Below, one piece after another: positions 4,653 through 52,701 of a stretch of DNA of 52,984 nt. The notes under the pieces were generated by a model, which ran no database searches, was not told where the DNA came from, and saw only the letters and a list, made by a program, of their open reading frames with translations. The position numbers and the translations under genes were made by a program. Origin of the DNA: Clostridia bacterium (GTDB lineage: Bacteria; Bacillota; Clostridia; UBA1381; UBA9506); contig JAFYXI010000035.1 of NCBI GenBank assembly GCA_017546245.1, positions 1 through 52,984 of the forward strand. The letters are read 5' to 3'. Numbering within the stretch: position 1 is the stretch's first letter; each line of letters starts with the position of its first letter.

Positions 4653-5147
4653 ATGAAGAAAGCAGCAAACTATAAAATAAGAGAAATGATGCCGAAAGAC
4701 AATAAGGCGGTTGCAGAGCTTATAAGATATAATCTTAAAAATCACGGACTTGATATTCCGGGAACTGTATATTTTGATTCTGTTTTAGATAATCTTTGTG
4801 TATTTTATTCCAATAACGAAAAACGCGGATATTATGTGCTTGTTGATGAAAATGACCAAGTAATGGGCGGAATTGGTTTTGCTGAATTTATCCCGTTTAA
4901 ATATTGTGCAGAACTTCAAAAGCTGTATCTGGCAGATGAAGTAAAAGGTTTGGGTTTGGGATATAAGATGATAAGCCACGTTGAAAATAAAATGACAGAA
5001 AAGGGTTATAAGGCATCTTATCTCGAAACTCACAAAAATCTTAAAATTGCGATGCATCTTTATGAAAAATGCGGATACAAAAAGATAGACCGTCCTAAAG
5101 AAGTTGCACATGGTGCAATGACGGACTTTTACTATAAAAATCTTTAA
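4653..5147 (+). CDS. GNAT-family N-acetyltransferase
   Basis: The 164-residue product has the GCN5-related acetyltransferase fold. The N-terminal strand (YKIREMMPKDNKAVAELI) leads to a central strand-turn with the acetyl-CoA pyrophosphate loop in VKGLGLGYKMISHVEN (R/Q-x-x-G-x-G/A type), then a C-terminal part with YLETHKNLKIAMHLYEKCGY. It most resembles small-molecule or amino-acid-like acetyltransferases with a single domain; the substrate cannot be read. A TTG at 4647 lies in frame, but the GAAGG site at 4641-4645 is correctly spaced for the ATG at 4653. The next gene begins 36 bases downstream. Confidence 0.88.
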   Translation: MKKAANYKIREMMPKDNKAVAELIRYNLKNHGLDIPGTVYFDSVLDNLCVFYSNNEKRGYYVLVDENDQVMGGIGFAEFIPFKYCAELQKLYLADEVKGLGLGYKMISHVENKMTEKGYKASYLETHKNLKIAMHLYEKCGYKKIDRPKEVAHGAMTDFYYKNL

Positions 5148-5183
5148 TAAACTATAATATATAAAATAAAAGGAGACAGAAGT

Positions 5184-5981
5184 ATGCGATTAACATTAGA
5201 AGTAAAAAACAAAAACGGAGAAATTTTATCTTCAAAGAGCGGAGAAAATTATGCTGTTTTAGTATATGAATCTGAATATGCAGAGGGAGATACCCTTGTT
5301 TTAAAAAGCTCTGAAAAAGATGTTTATTTAATGTTAAAACTTGAAGATTCTATGAATGAAGAGTTTATTTATCTTACAAAAGATGAGCTTACATATCTTA
5401 TTCCGTTCGGAGAAAAAAGAATATCTTATTCGCCGAAGACTTTTATCGGTAAAAAACATGTATTAACTGTTAGAACAGCAACAAATGCAGAAATTTGCGC
5501 TAACAAAAATCTTGCCAGAAACTGCTATGACCAGCACGGCGATACCGGGTGCTATCCGCACGTTCACGCAAATGTTGAAACTCGCGGTGAGGCCATGTTT
5601 GCTGCAAAAAATGCTATAAACGGAAATCGTTGCAACACAAGCCACGGTGGCTGGCCTTACGAATCGTGGGGCATTAATATGCAGGATGATGCCGAAATAA
5701 CAATTGAGTTCGGCAGAACGGTTGAAATAGACAGTATGGTTTTGGTTACCAGAGCAGATTTTCCGCACGATAATTACTGGAAACAGGTAACCTTTACATT
5801 TTCTGATGGCAGCAACTTGGTTTATGATATGGAAAAATCATATGATCCGCATTGTATTGAGCTTGCCGAAAAGAAAAAGGTAAGCTGGATTAAACTAGAA
5901 AAGCTTATTAAAGACCCTGAGGAACCGTCACCGTTTCCGGCTCTTAGTCAATGGGAGGTTTACGGAACGGAAATTAAATAA
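5184..5981 (+). CDS. orphan carbohydrate-binding protein with a galactose-binding-like fold
   Basis: The 265-residue product has two parts: an N-terminal beta-rich domain (about 1-100) and a C-terminal domain (about 105-263) that looks like an F5/8 type C or related galactose-binding fold. Features include WPYESWGINMQDDAEITIEF, a strand typical of the jelly roll, and a closing SQWEVYGTE. No signal peptide, membrane segment or catalytic domain is visible, so as drawn it would be cytoplasmic. The start at 5184 follows AAAGGAG. It may act on a cell-internal sugar conjugate or be exported by an unknown route; function is open. The gene ends one base before yqfD ends on the other strand. Confidence 0.72.
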   Translation: MRLTLEVKNKNGEILSSKSGENYAVLVYESEYAEGDTLVLKSSEKDVYLMLKLEDSMNEEFIYLTKDELTYLIPFGEKRISYSPKTFIGKKHVLTVRTATNAEICANKNLARNCYDQHGDTGCYPHVHANVETRGEAMFAAKNAINGNRCNTSHGGWPYESWGINMQDDAEITIEFGRTVEIDSMVLVTRADFPHDNYWKQVTFTFSDGSNLVYDMEKSYDPHCIELAEKKKVSWIKLEKLIKDPEEPSPFPALSQWEVYGTEIK

Positions 5982-19788: not shown

Positions 19789-22700
19789 ATGCAAAGTAAA
19801 AAATTATTATCAATGCTTCTTGTAATGATGATGTTAACAAGCAGTATAGGTGTGTTTGCGTTAGCAGAAGATGAAAGTGTTTTATCTCAGCCGATTATTG
19901 CAGAAGAGACAGTTGCCGAAGCTGAAGATGAGAATTTGTACGCGGAAGATTATAAGCCTGCAGCGCTTTTCTCAATAAATGATAATCCTACATCGGGAAC
20001 TGCTAATTCGGGCAAAATTTCGTGGTCACTTTCAGGTAATGGAATGCTCACAATTTCCGGCAACGGATTTACAGGTGATTTTAAGGATGCGGCTGCTCCG
20101 TGGAGTGCGCAAAGCCAGTATATAAAATTTATTTACATATCTGACGGAATTACAAACATTGGCACAAATGCATTTAAAGATTTATCTGATGCACAAAGTG
20201 TGTATATTCCTGAATCGGTTACAACAATTGGTATAAGCGCATTTGAAAACTGCAGTAAATTAAAAGAAATTTCGTTGCCTAAAAATTTAAGAACAATAGG
20301 CGCAAGTGCATTTAGTAATTGTACTAAAATTAAGAACATAACCATACCGCGCTACGTTACCTCCGTAGGCGAAAAGGCCTTTGCGGGATGCGAAAAGTTA
20401 AAAGAAATCTCTGTTGACAAAAACAACAGAGCATATATTGCATTAGATGGAGTTTTGTTTTATGATAACGGAACAATACTTGTATCTTATCCTGCTGCTA
20501 AAAACGACAATGAATATACAATTTCTTCTGGAATTAATGTAACAACAATTGCAGACTACGCATTTTACGGTAGCGATAAGCTTGAAAAGGTTAATTTTCC
20601 TTCAACTTTAAAAACCATAGGCAAGGGCGCGTTTACAGATTGTGAAAGCCTTACAAGAGTTTATATTCCTGCATCGGTTACAGATATTGCTCAAGATGCC
20701 TTTTTATACGGTTGTGATTCTTTAGAGGGTATTGATGTAGATGAGAATAACAGCGTATATTCAAGTGAAATGGGTGTTTTATTTAACAAAGATAAAACAA
20801 AGCTTATAAGATTTCCTGCTGCGTGTGAAGAACCGTGTAATAGTGGAGAGTATGTAACTCCTAAAACGGTTAAAATAATTGGACAGGAAGCATTTTTAGA
20901 CTGTCAGACTGTTGAAGTTTTATGGATGCACGGCTTGCTTGAAAAAATCGAAATGGCAGCATTTATGAATTTTGATTCGCTTCAGGAAATATGGTTTGAC
21001 GGAACAACAGAAAACTGGGAAATGGTCGAGATAGAGCCATTTAACGAAAAACTCGACGAGGTTTATATTGATTGTATGGTAGGTACCCTTGAAGAAAAAG
21101 CATTTAATGCTAAAGTTGGTGTAACCTATCATCTTGAAGAGTATGTTAATATTGAAGGAAATGAAGATGTTTTAAAAACCTTGGTTGTTTCTTCTTCAAA
21201 TACAAGTGTGGCGACTGTTGACGTAGAAAACAAAACATTGACGGCTATATCTGATGGTGAAGCAATAATTACTGCAGTAGCTATTAAAGATGGCGTGTCT
21301 TATGCTGTTTCTGTTAAGGTTATTGTATCTTCTGATATTACGGATAAAGAAGAGGGTAAATACTCACTTGTAGCAGGTGATACTTTAGACCTTAAAAAAG
21401 CATTAACCGTTCCGGAAATATTCTTAAATTCACTTACATGGAACACATCAAATTCAAAGGTGGTTACCGTAAATAATGGTGTTATCACAGCAGTAGGCAA
21501 GGGTTCGGCTGTAGTAATAGCAACGGTTAATGACCCGTCTATGTCTGCATATAGCATTCGTTGCGAAATTAATGTTGAGCCAAAATATACTGATGAAAAG
21601 TATTTTAAATTCAGTAATGGCACAATAACTGATTATACAGGAACTGATACCGAGGTTATAATTCCTCCTACAATTAATGGTATAGAGGTTAAAGCAATAG
21701 GTAATAATGCGTTTACAGATTGCTATAATGTAACTAAAATTGAGCTTCCTGAATCGGTTTACAGTATCGGAAACTATGCTTTTTATAACTGTACCTCGCT
21801 CTCTAATATCAATATGCATGAGGGAATTACACACATTGGTACAAGAGCATTTAATTATTGCAGCTCGCTTGTTAAAATAACAATTCCGTCAAAAGCAGAC
21901 TGCACATCGGCCGGCTTGTTCGAGGGTTGTTCACGTCTTAATTCGGTTACGTTTGCAAACGGAATAAAAACAATTTATCCTATTTTAAGAGGTTCATCGG
22001 TTAAAAATGTAGTTATACCAGGCACTGTTACAAAAATTAACGGCTATGCTTTTTACGGCTGTTCAAATCTTAGCAGTATAAGCATACCTAATAGTGTTAC
22101 AAGCATCGGTATTCATGCATTTTCTAACTGTTATAACCTTAAAACCGTAAGCATGGGCAAAAATGTAACAACTATAGGTGCATATGCGTTTAAAAATGCC
22201 TCTAAGTTAACCTCTGTTAATTTAAGTGCAGCGTTAACTACGTTAGAATATGGTGCGTTTAGCTATTGCACAAGCTTAACCGGCATCACAATTCCTGATA
22301 AAGTATCTTTTGTTGAATCAGATTTATTTTATGGATGTACCGGTCTTAAAACAGTTAAGCTTGGCGCAGGTGTAAAAGCCATTGGTTCTGCGGCATTCTA
22401 TGATTGTGGTAATCTTGAAAGTATTAATTTGCCAAACGGTTTATTAAGTATCGGTTACAGTGCATTTTATAAATCAGGTTTAAAATCTGTAACTATTCCA
22501 AATACGGTAACATCTATCGAGCTCCATGCTTTTCATGGATGTACAAATCTGGCAACAGTTAGTTTGAGTAGCGGTTTAACTGCTATAAAACAATATACCT
22601 TTGCAGCTTCGGGCTTAACAAGTATAACTATTCCGGATAATGTAAAAACTATAGATAACTATGCTTTTACTTCATGTAATAATTTACAAACTGTTCAGAT

Positions 22701-40807: not shown

Positions 40808-40836
40808 TTGTAAATTATTTATTTTTCTGTTAAAAT
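40808..40836 (+). promoter_or_regulatory. promoter of walR-walK
   Basis: TTGTAA (40808-40813), a 17-base spacer and TAAAAT (40831-40836) with a TGn extension, ahead of walR. It diverges from the yybS promoter; about 60 bases separate the two. Confidence 0.72.
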
Positions 40837-40867: not shown

Positions 40868-41578
40868 ATGGAAAAAGATATGGAATTTGAACGTTTAGTC
40901 CTTGTTGTAGATGACGAGCAGCCTATTGTAGATATTTTAAAGTTTAATTTAGAAAAAGAAGGCTTTGGCGTAATTACGGCCAACGACGGCGAAACGGCAC
41001 TGCAACTGGCGTTATCTAAAAATCCTGATTTAATGCTTTTAGACATAATGCTTCCTAAAATGGACGGATTTGAGGTTTGTAAAAAAATCAGAGAAAAATC
41101 TAATGTGCCCATCGTAATGATAACTGCACGCGGTGAAGAAGTTGATAAAGTTTTAGGTCTTGAATTAGGTGCTGACGATTATATTACGAAACCGTTTTCT
41201 GTTCGTGAACTGTTGGCGCGTGTAAAGGCAAACATGCGCCGTTTTACAGTAGACGCTAAAGAAGAAAAAGAGGAAATTCTTAATATAAGCGATAATTTTT
41301 ACATTAACGTTTCTCGTTACGAGGTATGCAAAGAAGGTAAAGTGTTAGAATTAACTTTAAGAGAATATGAGCTTTTAAAATTTCTTGTTATGCAACCAAA
41401 CCATATATTTTCTCGTGAATCACTTCTGTCCAGTGTGTGGGGATACGAATTTTATGGTGACTTGCGTACAGTAGACGTAACCGTTAGGCGTTTAAGAGAA
41501 AAAATAGAAGATGACCCGGGTAATCCAACTTGTATTTTAACAAAACGTGGAGTAGGCTATTATTTTAAAAAGAATTAA
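40868..41578 (+). CDS. walR: response regulator WalR (YycF)
   Basis: WalR is the OmpR/PhoB-type regulator of cell-wall metabolism. The 236-residue product has a receiver domain with VVDDEQPIVDILKFNLEKEG, phospho-acceptor Asp59 in LLDIMLPKMDGFEV, and ELGADDYITKPFSVRELLARVKA with the lysine. A winged-helix DNA-binding domain follows (LREYELLKFLVMQPNHIFSR, RTVDVTVRRLREKIEDDPG). The ATG at 40868 has AGAAGG ahead; a TTG-like longer start at 40838 overlaps the -10 element. The gene sits with walK, walH and walI, which supports Wal rather than Pho assignment. Confidence 0.9.
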   Translation: MEKDMEFERLVLVVDDEQPIVDILKFNLEKEGFGVITANDGETALQLALSKNPDLMLLDIMLPKMDGFEVCKKIREKSNVPIVMITARGEEVDKVLGLELGADDYITKPFSVRELLARVKANMRRFTVDAKEEKEEILNISDNFYINVSRYEVCKEGKVLELTLREYELLKFLVMQPNHIFSRESLLSSVWGYEFYGDLRTVDVTVRRLREKIEDDPGNPTCILTKRGVGYYFKKN

Positions 41579-41589
41579 GGGTTGTTGTT

Positions 41590-43362
41590 ATGTTTAAAAG
41601 TTTACAATGGAAAATTGTTGCCATGTTTCTTTTATTGGTGCTTGCGCTTCTTACAATTGCAGGAACTTTTTTGATAATGTCTGTAACAGGATTTTATAAC
41701 AATTTGTTTGCCGAAGAAATGGATTCTGTTTTCGACCGCTCGTTTATAGAAGAACTTGAAGCCGGCGGCTCTGAGGATTATTTATCAACTATTATCAGTG
41801 CCCGCACGCCGCGAATGGGTGTTGATTCATACCGTAGTTGTTATATCATATCGGCATCAGACGGCTCGGTTGTAAAGACCTTTGCCGGTGGTAATGTTTT
41901 GCCGGCTGAAATAACTCCCAATATGATAACTGCTATGAGCGGAAGAGTTGGCAGAGAGGTTAGCAGCAGGCTTTCTTATATGGATTACGCAGTTCCGTTT
42001 AGATCAGGAGATAGCGGTTATATAGTTTATGTAATTGATTCAAAGGACGAATTGTCAAAAATTATAGGGCAGATATTCAATATTATTATTCAGGCTCTTA
42101 TGCTTGGTTTGATAATATCATTCGTGCTTGGTTATTTTTTATCTAAAGCAATTACTACACCTATTGTAAACTTAACAAAACGTGCAAAATTACTTTCTGA
42201 AGGTGATTTTGAAAATAAAATAGATGTTAAATCTAATGACGAGATAGGTCTTTTGACGCAGACCTTTAATGATATGTCGACAACTTTACAGGAAAATCTT
42301 ATAGAAATTTCTCGCGAAAAAAACAAAGTTGATGCGATGCTGTTAAACATGACAGACGGAATTATGGCATTCGATGCAGATGGCAGAGTAATTCATATCA
42401 ATCCTACTGCGAAAAAAATGTTTCATATATGTAAAGGTGAAGACCTTGACTTTGATTCGTTCTTTGCAGGTGTTGATGCAGACATAAAAATAGGCGATTT
42501 ACTTTATTTTAATAATGATAGAAAATGCGAACGTGATATTGATTTTGAATCAGTACATTTAAAAGCAAATTTTGTTGGTTTTGATGATGAAAAAGACAAT
42601 ACCAGTGGTATTTTGGTTGTTTTACACGATATAACCAAACAACAAAAACTTGAACAATCCCGAAGAGAGTTTGTTGCCAACGTATCTCATGAATTAAGAA
42701 CTCCGCTAACTACGCTTAAAACATATACTGAAACCTTGTTGGAAATGGTAGAAGACAGTCAAATGCCGCATAGGTTTTTAGAAACCATTTTAAATGAAAC
42801 GGACCGCATGACGCGTCTTGTCAAAGATCTTTTGGTTCTGTCAAGTCTTGACCATTCACAACATGTTAAAAAGACGGTTTTTCCTATAAAAGAATTGATA
42901 CAGGATGTTGTTTCAATAATGAAACTTGTTGCGAAGGAACAAGGGCATAAGCTTAGCTTTTCTTGTACAACGGCTTTACCGGAATTTTTTGGCGACAGAG
43001 ATAAGCTTGAACAGCTTATGTATAATATTATATCAAATTCAATTAAATATACGCCAAATTGCGGTAAAATAGAAGTTTTTGCAGGTAAAATTTATGATGA
43101 TGTCTATATTAAAATTTGTGATAACGGAATAGGTATTCCCGAAAAAGATTTAACGCAGATTTTTGAAAGATTTTATCGTGTCGATAAAGCAAGAAGCCGT
43201 GAACTCGGTGGAACGGGACTGGGCTTAGCTATATCTAAAGGAATTGTAGATGCGCACGAAGGCACTATTAAAATTTCGAGTGAAGTCGGAAAAGGAACGG
43301 AAGTGCTTATAACACTACCTGTGAAAGCAAAACCTGAAGAAGATGTTGAGTTAAACGGCTAA
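41590..43362 (+). CDS. walK: sensor histidine kinase WalK (YycG)
   Basis: WalK senses cell-wall state and phosphorylates WalR. The 590-residue protein has a membrane helix at about 8-30, an extracellular domain (about 31-160), and a second helix at about 163-185. A HAMP domain (about 188-240) and a PAS domain (about 250-355) come next, then the HisKA domain with VANVSHELRTPLTTLK (His367). The ATPase domain shows NIISNSIKYTPN, DNGIGIPEKDL and GGTGLGLAISKGIVDAH. The order fits WalK including the internal PAS. It follows walR by 11 bases. The last base of the gene lies just before four WalR-box-like half-sites. Confidence 0.92.
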   Translation: MFKSLQWKIVAMFLLLVLALLTIAGTFLIMSVTGFYNNLFAEEMDSVFDRSFIEELEAGGSEDYLSTIISARTPRMGVDSYRSCYIISASDGSVVKTFAGGNVLPAEITPNMITAMSGRVGREVSSRLSYMDYAVPFRSGDSGYIVYVIDSKDELSKIIGQIFNIIIQALMLGLIISFVLGYFLSKAITTPIVNLTKRAKLLSEGDFENKIDVKSNDEIGLLTQTFNDMSTTLQENLIEISREKNKVDAMLLNMTDGIMAFDADGRVIHINPTAKKMFHICKGEDLDFDSFFAGVDADIKIGDLLYFNNDRKCERDIDFESVHLKANFVGFDDEKDNTSGILVVLHDITKQQKLEQSRREFVANVSHELRTPLTTLKTYTETLLEMVEDSQMPHRFLETILNETDRMTRLVKDLLVLSSLDHSQHVKKTVFPIKELIQDVVSIMKLVAKEQGHKLSFSCTTALPEFFGDRDKLEQLMYNIISNSIKYTPNCGKIEVFAGKIYDDVYIKICDNGIGIPEKDLTQIFERFYRVDKARSRELGGTGLGLAISKGIVDAHEGTIKISSEVGKGTEVLITLPVKAKPEEDVELNG

Positions 43363-43365
43363 TAT

Positions 43366-43420
43366 TGTAAACTTATTCTAACAATTCTGTAATGGTATTG
43401 TAAAAAACATGTGTTATAAT
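43366..43420 (+). promoter_or_regulatory. WalR-box array and extended -10 promoter of the inserted secreted gene
   Basis: Four hexamers start at 43366 (TGTAAA), 43377 (TCTAAC), 43388 (TGTAAT) and 43399 (TGTAAA), each exactly 11 bases apart. The last two match the WalR consensus TGTWAH-N5-TGTWAH perfectly; the first pair has one mismatch. TATAAT at 43415-43420 with TG extension follows, but no proper -35 exists; the -35 position falls on the box, as expected for activation by an OmpR-type regulator. Confidence 0.72.
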
Positions 43421-43466
43421 TATCAAAAATAAGAATTATACATGTAGTTATATGGGGGTAATTCAA

Positions 43467-43943
43467 TTGAAAAACAAAATTTTAAGAAAGGTAATATGCA
43501 GTTTTGCGCTTGCGCTCATTTTGGCAGCTGTGTTTTCTGTCAGTGCATTTGCAACTCCTGACACTTTACCTGCTGATATAGCATCAACGAATGAAAGTCT
43601 GATAACGGTAAGAGCGCCGGAAACGACAACGATTTCGACAACAAATTCTAAATTGGCGATTTCTGCTGTTGCTGCTCCGGGAACAGTTGTTACAGTATAT
43701 CGCTATGATGTAGCTACTAATTTGTTTTACAAGGTTATGCTAGAAGATGAGCCGTTAGAATCTGTGGTTGGTTCTTCGTGGCTGTTTGCTTCACAGGTTG
43801 ATTTACAGACCGGATTAAATCAATTTATTGTTCGTGGTGCGATTGATGATGAAAACTTTACAATCTCTCGTTTCGATGTTAATTTATTGAACGAAGGATT
43901 TATGGACAGAATTAAAGGTGTTATATCCGTCATATTTAACTAA
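43467..43943 (+). CDS. small secreted protein of unknown function inside the wal operon
   Basis: The 158-residue product has a clear signal peptide (KNKILRKVICSFALALILAA, cut after VSAFA near 27). The mature part is beta-rich with an Ig-like feel: KLAISAVAAPGTVVTVYRYD, LQTGLNQFIVRGAIDDENF. It ends in an amphipathic NEGFMDRIKGVISVIFN. I recognise no family. An ATG at 43452 is in frame but has no ribosome site; GGGGGT at 43455-43460 is well placed for the TTG at 43467. The gene has its own WalR-type promoter and terminator, and splits walK from walH. I infer an envelope protein under WalR control; its role is open. Confidence 0.82.
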   Translation: MKNKILRKVICSFALALILAAVFSVSAFATPDTLPADIASTNESLITVRAPETTTISTTNSKLAISAVAAPGTVVTVYRYDVATNLFYKVMLEDEPLESVVGSSWLFASQVDLQTGLNQFIVRGAIDDENFTISRFDVNLLNEGFMDRIKGVISVIFN

Positions 43944-43958
43944 TAAATAGTTTTTATT

Positions 43959-43987
43959 TAGAGTGTCCGTTGCGACACTCTATTTTA
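43959..43987 (+). terminator. terminator of the inserted secreted gene
   Basis: A 9-bp stem (43959-43967 with 43974-43982) with a CGTTGC loop is followed by ATTTTAA. It would partly isolate walH-walI from upstream transcription. Confidence 0.75.
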
Positions 43988-44035
43988 ACATTAAAGGGAT
44001 ATATTATTTTTATATGAAAGGCGGGGGCTTTTAAT

Positions 44036-45535
44036 ATGAAAAGAAAATTAATATTAAAAGATGCATTCCTCGCGTTTTTAATTTGTTTAAATTTATTTTT
44101 GGTGTTTCAGATATGGTTTAATACTAATATGTTTTCTATTGATTCTATATCTGAGCCAAGTAAAATTGAAGAATTTTTAATTAAACCGGTCAAAAAGCTC
44201 TTTTCAAAAAGTAACAACGGTGCTTTTTCGGAAAATTTAAGAAATTTAATGAGACCTCAGCGAATTATTATTAACAAGTCAAACAGCAGAGCTGTTTTAT
44301 ATGACGAAAACGAAAGCTATCAGGAATTATTGGGATATACATATGAAATAATTCGGAGAATGTTTAACGGAAATATAAAAATAAATAAAACAGAAACAAT
44401 AAGTTTAGATGATTATTGTGCTGTACTAAAAAGAAATTCTGTGTATTTGGATTATGATAACTTTTGTGATTTTAGATTATTTTCTGCCGCCATATGCGGT
44501 GAGGCTAAAAATCAATTAAGTAACGATTTATCTGTAGTTCGCGAGTGTTTGTTAAGTCCTGCTGACAACACACTGAACAATATTGCTGTATATATTAAAG
44601 ACTACAAAACCGGCAATGTTATGAAGTATGTCATAGATGAAAAAAAAGATGTTTTAGAACAAATGCTCACATCCTATTTTCAGACACATAGTAAAGAAAG
44701 TACATTAAATTATTCTTTTGAACTTAATTTTCATAAGCAAGAAAGCGGAGACGGCTCGTTAGTAAGACTTGTATTTGACCCATTAATAATTTTTAATTTG
44801 GTATCATCTGATATACAAGGTGCAGAAACAAATAGCGAATTACTTTACAGATGGCCACAAATTCAAGATGAAAAATCAAATGAAATTTTAGGAGCATTTA
44901 AAATAAATCCTATGACAATGCGTAAGTACACGAATCTTACAAATGCTCGTGTTTTTGTTGAAAACGAAGCAACGCTTACTTTGAGCACTAATGGAATTTT
45001 AGAATATAAGACCATAGAAGGCGGGCAAGGACTTTTAATAGCAAATGATGAACAAAAAAATAATTTTGATATTTATAATGCAGTATCGGCTGCGGTGAAT
45101 TTTATATATCAAGTTAATGAAGAATTGCCTTATGACTTAATATCATCATTGCGCTTTAATTCTGACATTGTAAATGGAACAAATCAAGGAAGTTATACAA
45201 TAAGTTTTGATTTATATACAAATGGCTATCCTATACTTCAAACTGATCCTGCAACCGGCGAAAACACACATTGCATAACTATGAGAATAGAAAATGGATA
45301 TTTAAAATACTATCGTCAATTTATTCGTAAATATAATTCCGTTGACGAAAATTTAAGTGTTTCTCCTGTAATAAATGCTGTTGATGGTTTAATAGATGAT
45401 TTAAATTCTCAAGACGAACATTTAAATGTATTAAATGTTGGTCGCTGTTATGTTGATTCCGGCGTGGATAAAGCTTTAATACCTCAATGGAATATTAGAG
45501 TTGAAGGAATAGAGAAAATCTTAACTGTAAAGTAG
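44036..45535 (+). CDS. walH: WalRK regulator WalH (YycH)
   Basis: YycH is a membrane-anchored extracytoplasmic regulator of WalK. The 499-residue product has one N-terminal membrane helix (about 10-30) and a long extracellular part of mixed alpha/beta repeats. Low sequence conservation is normal for this family; the call rests on topology, length, position after walK and the partner walI directly behind. RPQRIIINKSNSRAVLYDEN and YRWPQIQDEKSNEILGAF are parts of the YycH-like fold. GGCGGGGG precedes the ATG. Confidence 0.8.
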   Translation: MKRKLILKDAFLAFLICLNLFLVFQIWFNTNMFSIDSISEPSKIEEFLIKPVKKLFSKSNNGAFSENLRNLMRPQRIIINKSNSRAVLYDENESYQELLGYTYEIIRRMFNGNIKINKTETISLDDYCAVLKRNSVYLDYDNFCDFRLFSAAICGEAKNQLSNDLSVVRECLLSPADNTLNNIAVYIKDYKTGNVMKYVIDEKKDVLEQMLTSYFQTHSKESTLNYSFELNFHKQESGDGSLVRLVFDPLIIFNLVSSDIQGAETNSELLYRWPQIQDEKSNEILGAFKINPMTMRKYTNLTNARVFVENEATLTLSTNGILEYKTIEGGQGLLIANDEQKNNFDIYNAVSAAVNFIYQVNEELPYDLISSLRFNSDIVNGTNQGSYTISFDLYTNGYPILQTDPATGENTHCITMRIENGYLKYYRQFIRKYNSVDENLSVSPVINAVDGLIDDLNSQDEHLNVLNVGRCYVDSGVDKALIPQWNIRVEGIEKILTVK

Positions 45536-45547
45536 GTGAGCATTACA

Positions 45548-46399
45548 ATGAATTGGGAACGCGCCAAAACAGTGTTGATTATATTTTTTCTTATTATAAA
45601 TATTTGTTTTGCCGGCATATTGGTTTATATGCGATATAGCGATGAAACATTATCTGAAGATACAGTAAAAACAACCGTTTCATTATTGTCGCAACACGGA
45701 ATAATAATTAAAAATGCAAATATAATTCCTAAACAAAAAATGAAAAATCAAAACTATAGCTTAACTACATTGATGTTTTCTGATAATAAACTATTAAAAA
45801 AATGGTTGGGCGATGGCTATAAATTATCTGAAGAAGATTCTTCTGCGTATTGTTTTACTTATCAAAATGCAAATAAAAGATTAGTTTTAAACAAAACAGG
45901 TATAGATTTTATAAACGATAAAAAAACTGTTTTGCATACTAAAAAGTCAGATAAAGATATAGAAGATTTTTTATCTGCAAGGCTAAAAGAATTTAACTTT
46001 AATAAAAAGGAATACTACTTTAGTAAAGTGTGGTTTGAAAATGGTTTATATCATGGTATAATATCTCCTTTAGCCGATAACACAAAAATTTTAGGTATTG
46101 AACTGGAAATTTCGGCAGATAAAGAGGAAATAATTAATATAAAGGGAAATTACTTTACATCTAATAGCAAAGAAGAATTTGATTCTAAAGGTCTGTTAGA
46201 TATAACAGCGATACTGGCAAAAATGGTATATTTGCCTGAAAAACCGATTTCAGAAATGACAGGAATATCATATGCCGGATATGTATCGGACATATATATC
46301 GAAAATAAAGAGGTAACAGCAGTTCCGGTTTATGTAATTGAATTTGCCAACGGAGTGATATATTATTATGATGCCCGTACCGGTGAAATGCTCGATTAA
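45548..46399 (+). CDS. walI: WalRK regulator WalI (YycI)
   Basis: YycI pairs with YycH to control WalK. The 283-residue protein starts MNWERAKTVLIIFFLIINIC, the typical short cytoplasmic lead and single membrane helix of YycI (which usually begins M-D/N-W). The extracellular part has a two-repeat PepSY-like fold with VPVYVIEFANGVIYYYDART at the end. The GTG at 45536 directly after walH is a poorer start; AGGTGAG is spaced seven bases from the ATG at 45548. WalJ and HtrA, often next in other genomes, are replaced here by obg. Confidence 0.85.
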   Translation: MNWERAKTVLIIFFLIINICFAGILVYMRYSDETLSEDTVKTTVSLLSQHGIIIKNANIIPKQKMKNQNYSLTTLMFSDNKLLKKWLGDGYKLSEEDSSAYCFTYQNANKRLVLNKTGIDFINDKKTVLHTKKSDKDIEDFLSARLKEFNFNKKEYYFSKVWFENGLYHGIISPLADNTKILGIELEISADKEEIINIKGNYFTSNSKEEFDSKGLLDITAILAKMVYLPEKPISEMTGISYAGYVSDIYIENKEVTAVPVYVIEFANGVIYYYDARTGEMLD

Positions 46400-51876: not shown

Positions 51877-52701
51877 ATGAAAAAGTTTACACTATTGTTT
51901 TTGGTAGCAGCTATCTTAGCTTTTTCTTCTTTTGGTGTTGCAGCATTTGCACCTGAGAATGATAGCTATACCATCACCTACAATGTAGGTGCAGAAAACG
52001 CAGGATCTATGTACGGTATGGTAGCAATTTCCGGTACCGGCGACAGCGTTAGCACAACTAACACTGACGACATCGTTTACATCGATCAGGCAACTGCAGA
52101 TGCAGAAGGTAACATCACCTTTACAGCATTTGCTCCTATGGGCGCAGCTCCCAGTGATGCAGCTTATGTTCCAAGCACAGTATTCATTGGCGGTCCAAGC
52201 TACACCACAGTTCAGAAAATCGGTACTTTAGATGCAGAAGCAGCTAGCACATTTGCAATTACCGGTAAAGTTTCTGACACAGTTAGCAACGTTGCAGCAA
52301 CTGTTACTGTTTTAAACGGTGAAGAAGAAATTGCTGTTGCAGCAGCTGCTGCTGATGGCACATTCAGCATTGCGGTTGCACCGGGTACTTACAATGTTAA
52401 GTTCACAAAAGCTGGTTTCTGCTCATTTACTTATACTAACGTAGTTGTTGGTGCAGCAGACGTAGCTCTTGCAGCAGTTGATATGACAGCTCTTGCTGGT
52501 GATATCGCTGAGGGCGGTAACGGCGAAGTTAAGCTTCCTGACTTAACAGCTCTTCTCGGAGATTATAACCACTCTGGTACAGCAATTACAAATGCATTAG
52601 CTGACCTTGATGCTAACGGCGAAGTTAAGCTTCCTGACTTAACAGCTCTTCTTGGTGGATACAATAGTGCTAATATTGTTCAGGCTTACGCAGCAGAGTA
52701 A
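51877..52701 (+). CDS. secreted protein with carboxypeptidase-regulatory-like and dockerin-like domains
   Basis: The 274-residue protein has a signal peptide (about 1-24). An N-terminal beta domain leads to a carboxypeptidase-regulatory-like domain (about 125-205; ADGTFSIAVAPGTYNVKFTK). A C-terminal pair of dockerin-like repeats (about 208-268) follows, each containing NGEVKLPDLTALLG followed by a YN. The second has a full EF-hand-like loop DLDANGEVKLPD (D, D, N, V, D in positions 1, 3, 5, 8, 12); the first lacks the first two acidic ligands. The two share a 39-base identical DNA segment. No enzyme domain is present. GAGGAG precedes the ATG. No terminator lies before it, so it may share the transcript of the gene at 50673. 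Confidence 0.82.
   Translation: MKKFTLLFLVAAILAFSSFGVAAFAPENDSYTITYNVGAENAGSMYGMVAISGTGDSVSTTNTDDIVYIDQATADAEGNITFTAFAPMGAAPSDAAYVPSTVFIGGPSYTTVQKIGTLDAEAASTFAITGKVSDTVSNVAATVTVLNGEEEIAVAAAAADGTFSIAVAPGTYNVKFTKAGFCSFTYTNVVVGAADVALAAVDMTALAGDIAEGGNGEVKLPDLTALLGDYNHSGTAITNALADLDANGEVKLPDLTALLGGYNSANIVQAYAAE
52518..52652 (+). repeat. 39-base direct repeat encoding the two dockerin-like units
   Basis: Bases 52518-52556 and 52614-52652 are identical, 96 bases (32 codons) apart and in frame. They code for the conserved core of the two dockerin-like units. Confidence 0.9.

Follow-up and report, generated by a model that had tools for sequence, protein, structure and literature searches.

An exported protein encoded between walK and walH behind conserved WalR-type sites, a probable feedback component of Wal signalling in clostridia

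Introduction

Why should the wal operon of a clostridium carry, between its genes for the sensor kinase WalK and for WalH, a gene for an exported protein of its own, preceded by what look like the binding sites of the operon's own regulator? The question is raised by a 52,984-nucleotide stretch of DNA from a Clostridia bacterium (the window; GenBank assembly GCA_017546245.1, contig JAFYXI010000035.1), in which the gene, here called X, lies downstream of an array of four hexamers. A sequence-only reading of the window had taken X for an exported protein that breaks the usual walR–walK–walH–walI order, either a WalR-activated envelope effector or a feedback component of the WalK–WalH–WalI sensor.

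To our knowledge, WalRK has proved essential in every Firmicute tested. The system is pursued as an antibiotic target, and its signal and the limits on its output are known mainly from Bacilli. WalRK–WalHI of Bacillus subtilis and Staphylococcus aureus has the same order of walR, walK, walH and walI, a regulon of wall enzymes and boxes of the form TGTWAH-N5-TGTWAH; the clostridial locus differs in adding an exported protein with a predicted Ig-like fold and an internal promoter with a WalR-type box.

Results

The genes and sites considered are listed in Table 1. For the walR product the best NCBIfam model is YycF, at 326.7 bits and thus 13 below its equivalog cut-off (340), and for the walK product it is HK_WalK, at 456.7 bits against a cut-off of 725; the synteny of the wal genes supports the identification of the regulator as WalR. 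The walH assignment is secure: Foldseek matches the predicted model of its product to the WalK–YycH model 9a5d_B (E 9e-20) and to YycH 2fgt (E 6e-16), and 7 of 20 aligned walH relatives match Pfam YycH (PF07435). Pfam YycI (PF09648) is matched by 9 of 15 aligned walI relatives, with a best E of 1e-46; walI of the window has no match to YycI in Pfam and a weak one to PepSY only.

Table 1. Positions of the wal genes, the leader elements of X and the two further array sites of the same genome
Feature	Position	Strand	Remarks
walR, response regulator	40868..41578	+	Response_reg and Trans_reg_C; ORF listed from 40838, 40868 likely start
walK, sensor kinase	41590..43362	+	HAMP, PAS, HisKA, HATPase
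Array unit 1, TGTAAA	43366..43371	+	TGTWA type
Array unit 2, TCTAAC	43377..43382	+	YTTAA type in relatives
Array unit 3, TGTAAT	43388..43393	+	
Array unit 4, TGTAAA	43399..43404	+	flanks −35 position
Extended −10, TG-n-TATAAT	43415..43420	+	10 bp from unit 4 (relatives: 10 or 11 bp)
Gene X, exported 158-residue protein	43467..43943	+	signal peptide, predicted Ig-like domain, C-terminal helix
Terminator-like hairpin between X and walH	43960..43981	+	8–9 bp, weak T-tract; family-specific
walH (YycH)	44036..45535	+	identified by fold of predicted model and relatives' Pfam matches
walI (YycI)	45536..46399	+	tentatively assigned from relatives' Pfam matches
Array site L062, same genome	G000:C16:70362-70394		upstream of M23 peptidase with G5 domain
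Array site L063, same genome	G000:C20:5660-5692		upstream of PBP1A

Gene X begins with TTG, preceded by GGGGG. Its product carries a signal peptide and matches no family in Pfam or NCBIfam, as the earlier description of an exported protein of no known family had it. Structure prediction, which that reading had suggested, gave a confident AlphaFold2 model (pLDDT 89.5) in which X is predicted to fold as a single Ig-like domain, a β-sandwich, followed by a C-terminal helix. The closest solved fold is that of glucodextranase 1ug9 (Z 10.0 over 87 residues), and Ig modules score Z 8–10 against the model, the neighbours being Ig-type modules of carbohydrate enzymes, S-layer proteins and other proteins. 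The fold is widespread and by itself indicates neither function nor ligand. X shares it, as predicted, with bacterial Ig-like modules such as Glucodextran_B and Big, but differs from these in being a single free-standing domain that is tied to walH. Comparison with these Pfam Ig-like families gave weak matches only, below every gathering cut-off, including those of some X members to Glucodextran_B, and an X profile found no match among the sequences of solved structures. The X alignment (A4) has a mean column identity of 26%, and because conservation is this poor no fixed contact surface is obvious. A strongly amphipathic character of the C-terminal helix was considered and rejected as unsupported (median shuffle p 0.23).

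Homology search found X in 43 of 101 relatives' genomes, and a profile search of 391 genomes from the class found it in 98. Almost every locus read has it between walK and walH, and over 25 families, drawn from several classes, contribute loci with this walK–X–walH order. The order walR–walK–X–walH–walI is the norm in much of the class Clostridia and in related classes; weaker X matches in other classes of the phylum also lie between walK and walH, behind the same leader. The idea that X breaks the usual gene order in the window thus has to be given up, and a local insertion is ruled out, since X occupies the same position in so many clostridial relatives. At one locus (L064) an ORF of 266 residues (4762–5562, minus strand) lies between walK and X, with the array still directly before X.

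X is almost never found apart from walH. With a wider profile, X is present at E<1e-8 in 124 genomes, and walH in 124 of these 124 against 168 of 391 genomes overall, the two genome lists being compared by eye. Among the loci examined, no fusion of X to walK or to walH was seen.

In the leader of X, the sequence-only reading had seen four WalR hexamers in an exact 11-bp register, the last two matching the WalR consensus perfectly, above an extended −10. The register is borne out by the four unit starts in Table 1, the pair at 43388–43404 is an exact TGTWAH-N5-TGTWAH, and the TATAAT has TG before it, with unit 4 beside the −35 position; the second hexamer is instead a unit of YTTAA type and not TGTWAH. 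The pair alone is modest evidence, because the window contains four such pairs where 0.84 are expected by chance, and a comparative test was therefore needed. Together with a −10-like TANNNT at 10 bp, the pair occurs only 3 times in the organism's own 2.03-Mb genome. Further sites in the window lie at 19821 and at 52109; the latter falls inside the coding sequence of an ORF (51877–52701) and is probably due to chance. This ORF encodes an exported protein whose C-terminal part carries the repeated motif GNGEVKLPDLTALLG.

For the comparison, 87 distinct X–walH loci were picked by protein homology to X or WalH alone, with the motif unused, and scored for the core TGTAAY-N5-TGTAAH-N10/11-TATAAT, two mismatches being the most allowed. 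A score of at least 16/18 is reached in 85 of the 87 loci and in 0.06% of shuffled leaders; since many of the loci are related, these counts cannot be read as independent events, and the shuffles take no account of common ancestry. Units 1 and 2 are not part of the scoring and are conserved as well, TGT of unit 1 in 79 of 85 leaders and TAA of unit 2 (its positions 3–5) in 81 of 85, which points, without bias from the scoring, to a site made of four units. The consensus of the array reads TGTWA / YTTAA / TGTAAY / TGTAAH, followed after 10–11 bp by TATAAT. Leader positions outside the array carry little information and the neighbouring sequence is unconserved. The families with the array are distant, the identity of their X to the window protein often being 20–30%. 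The search of related wal loci that the sequence-only reading had proposed thus found both X and the array conserved.

A scan of 291 genomes for the exact core returned 68 sites in 66 genomes, against 1 for the reversed control. Between walK and walH, before X or a diverged exported protein, lie 58 of the 68, part of these placements being made from the coordinates of the class-wide X profile search. At two loci (L181 and L189) walK abuts walH and there is neither X nor array, and at one (L180) X is present without the array. L178, L179, L184 and L187 retain the array and an exported ORF, although X can hardly, if at all, be recognized there. The exported proteins at these four loci and at L196 are long and diverged, with N-terminal extensions; they replace or extend X at its usual position behind the array, and may be orthologues of X that evolve fast. 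The leaders of walR, read at 17 loci, lack the array (scores 11–15/18). Autoregulation of walR through a lax pair at 40828 was also considered and rejected, the pair being missing from 13 of 13 relatives in the family.

Elsewhere in the organism's own genome, the array with a −10-like sequence occurs in only two places, before the gene of a G5-domain M23 peptidase and before that of a PBP1A. Across the window's family the second of these sites is conserved (L206–L209, L212, L214, L222–L225), so that a class A penicillin-binding protein is probably under WalR control there. In 14 genomes of the family, the array sites accompany either X or PBP1A, apart from two that lie at a glycosyltransferase-like gene and one that has no called ORF. 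The two glycosyltransferase-like sites (L216 and L221) are perfect arrays before a membrane protein, a possible further WalR target. In other genomes, sites outside the wal operon precede NlpC/P60, Amidase_3 and murA-like genes, and the remaining ones precede proC and an ORF without family or, in one case, no gene. At L137 (G024:C20:40692-40724) a perfect core and −10 are followed by no evident protein gene, with a hairpin-like inverted repeat within 100 nt, possibly a small RNA.

The few array sites outside wal therefore fall mostly before peptidoglycan genes (PBP1A, M23, NlpC/P60 and amidase). WalR regulons are known to contain peptidoglycan genes, and the spacing of the array fits the WalR consensus, TGTWAH-N5-TGTWAH (PMC9210968). 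From this gene content and the consensus match we strongly infer that WalR is the regulator of the array and that the array would activate X; the earlier picture of a WalR-activated exported envelope component draws strong support from how well the array is conserved, from what the other genes behind such arrays encode, and from the controls. Direct repeats of similar hexamers at 11-bp spacing are common to several OmpR-family regulators, and binding by another of these, such as one of the PhoP or PhoB type, would explain the array's form. Such a regulator is very improbable here, because the site is always in the wal operon, with peptidoglycan rather than phosphate genes making up the regulon.

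The segment after X (43944–43995) has a predicted fold of −13.2 kcal/mol. The sequence-only reading had given X its own terminator and made it a separate unit: the hairpin is present, but its T-tract is weak and it is a trait of the family and not of the system. A similar hairpin with a T-run follows X in most loci of the window's family, so that X may be made alone there, and is absent in most other families. The gap from X to walH is no more than about 25 nt in many families, short enough for read-through, and WalH and WalI would then rise too.

Discussion

Our analysis suggests that X is, on balance probably, a fifth, conserved part of Wal signalling in clostridia: WalR-activated, exported and most likely feeding back on the sensor complex. 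The gene, the array, their conservation and their linkage are direct results of the computation. WalR~P would bind the four 11-bp-spaced units upstream of the extended −10 inside the operon and activate X. In most families the same promoter would probably also feed walH and walI by read-through; in the window's family the hairpin would favour X. Once exported, X would place its Ig-like domain in the wall or at the external surface of the membrane, and would most likely act on the WalK–WalH–WalI complex, either directly or by binding a wall ligand. The output of WalR would thereby control its own sensor, in a feedback loop with CpxP-like logic.

The export of X in vivo, the feedback and its sign are what we infer only. 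The feedback idea fits the genetics, in which linkage to walH is obligate and boxes of response-regulator type lie inside a two-component operon; such sites within a sensor operon, together with an exported product and the linkage to WalH, point to an action of X on the sensor complex. WalH is a partner of WalK and restrains it in B. subtilis (PMC7299342). A more specific form of the idea, which we put forward tentatively, is a clostridial feedback arm in which WalR drives X, with WalH and WalI, from the internal promoter, and X tunes WalK through contact with WalK, WalH or WalI or through a wall signal. Its retention in several classes would make this loop ancient.

The main rival explanation treats X as an envelope effector that sends no signal to WalK: activated by WalR, X would bind peptidoglycan or teichoic acid or restrain a hydrolase, and would sit in the wal operon for co-expression only. 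The other array-bearing genes encode wall enzymes, the structural neighbours of X include Ig modules of carbohydrate enzymes and some X members weakly resemble Glucodextran_B, all of which would suit an effector; the Ig fold alone gives no ligand, however, and regulon effectors usually move freely, whereas X stays with walH. We regard a pure effector as possible but rather unlikely. The lesser rival makes X a leader or passenger gene of a promoter that mainly raises WalH and WalI under WalR. The short gap between X and walH in many families is in keeping with this. Since WalK of B. subtilis is held back by WalH and WalI (PMC7299342), WalR-driven walHI alone would close a loop. Nevertheless, the two loci in which walK abuts walH have walH and no array, and in the window's family the terminator-like hairpin separates X from walH, and we consider this explanation improbable.

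Feedback through X would have partial parallels in known systems. IseA (YoeB) of B. subtilis is a secreted hydrolase inhibitor under WalR control, and is thus exported and in the WalR regulon, as X would be. Its gene is repressed by WalR~P (PMC7299342). Unlike X, iseA lies outside the wal operon, and no similarity between the two proteins was found, the X profile having matched no solved chain. CpxP of the enterobacterial Cpx system is, like X, a small exported accessory protein of an envelope two-component system; it is induced by its response regulator and inhibits CpxA, and the X locus carries the boxes of a regulator. The model of X is all-β and Ig-like, in contrast to the helical CpxP/Spy fold, and the bacteria and the signal differ. 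An interaction of CpxA with CpxP has been described (PMC4160245), whereas that of X with the kinase is a proposal.

The walA–walR–walK–truA2 operon of Clostridioides difficile likewise adds an exported accessory protein to a clostridial Wal operon. This protein, WalA, is a β-propeller lipoprotein encoded upstream of walR; there is no walH (PMC9210968). Wal operons have been reported without autoregulation, and induction of walR in C. difficile did not induce the native operon (PMC9210968). Because C. difficile has neither walH nor X, it could not have shown autoregulation of the X type, and X is for the same reason not universal. In open-access papers we found no clostridial Wal component like X, an absence that is no proof of novelty.

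With its nearly invariant WalR-type sites, this exported protein of many clostridia suggests that Wal signalling has an overlooked element, which probably serves feedback. Conserved from gut clostridia to related classes, X and its promoter would add a missing part to this signalling and would make Wal feedback testable in one step, and the array provides a sharp motif for defining WalR regulons in clostridia.
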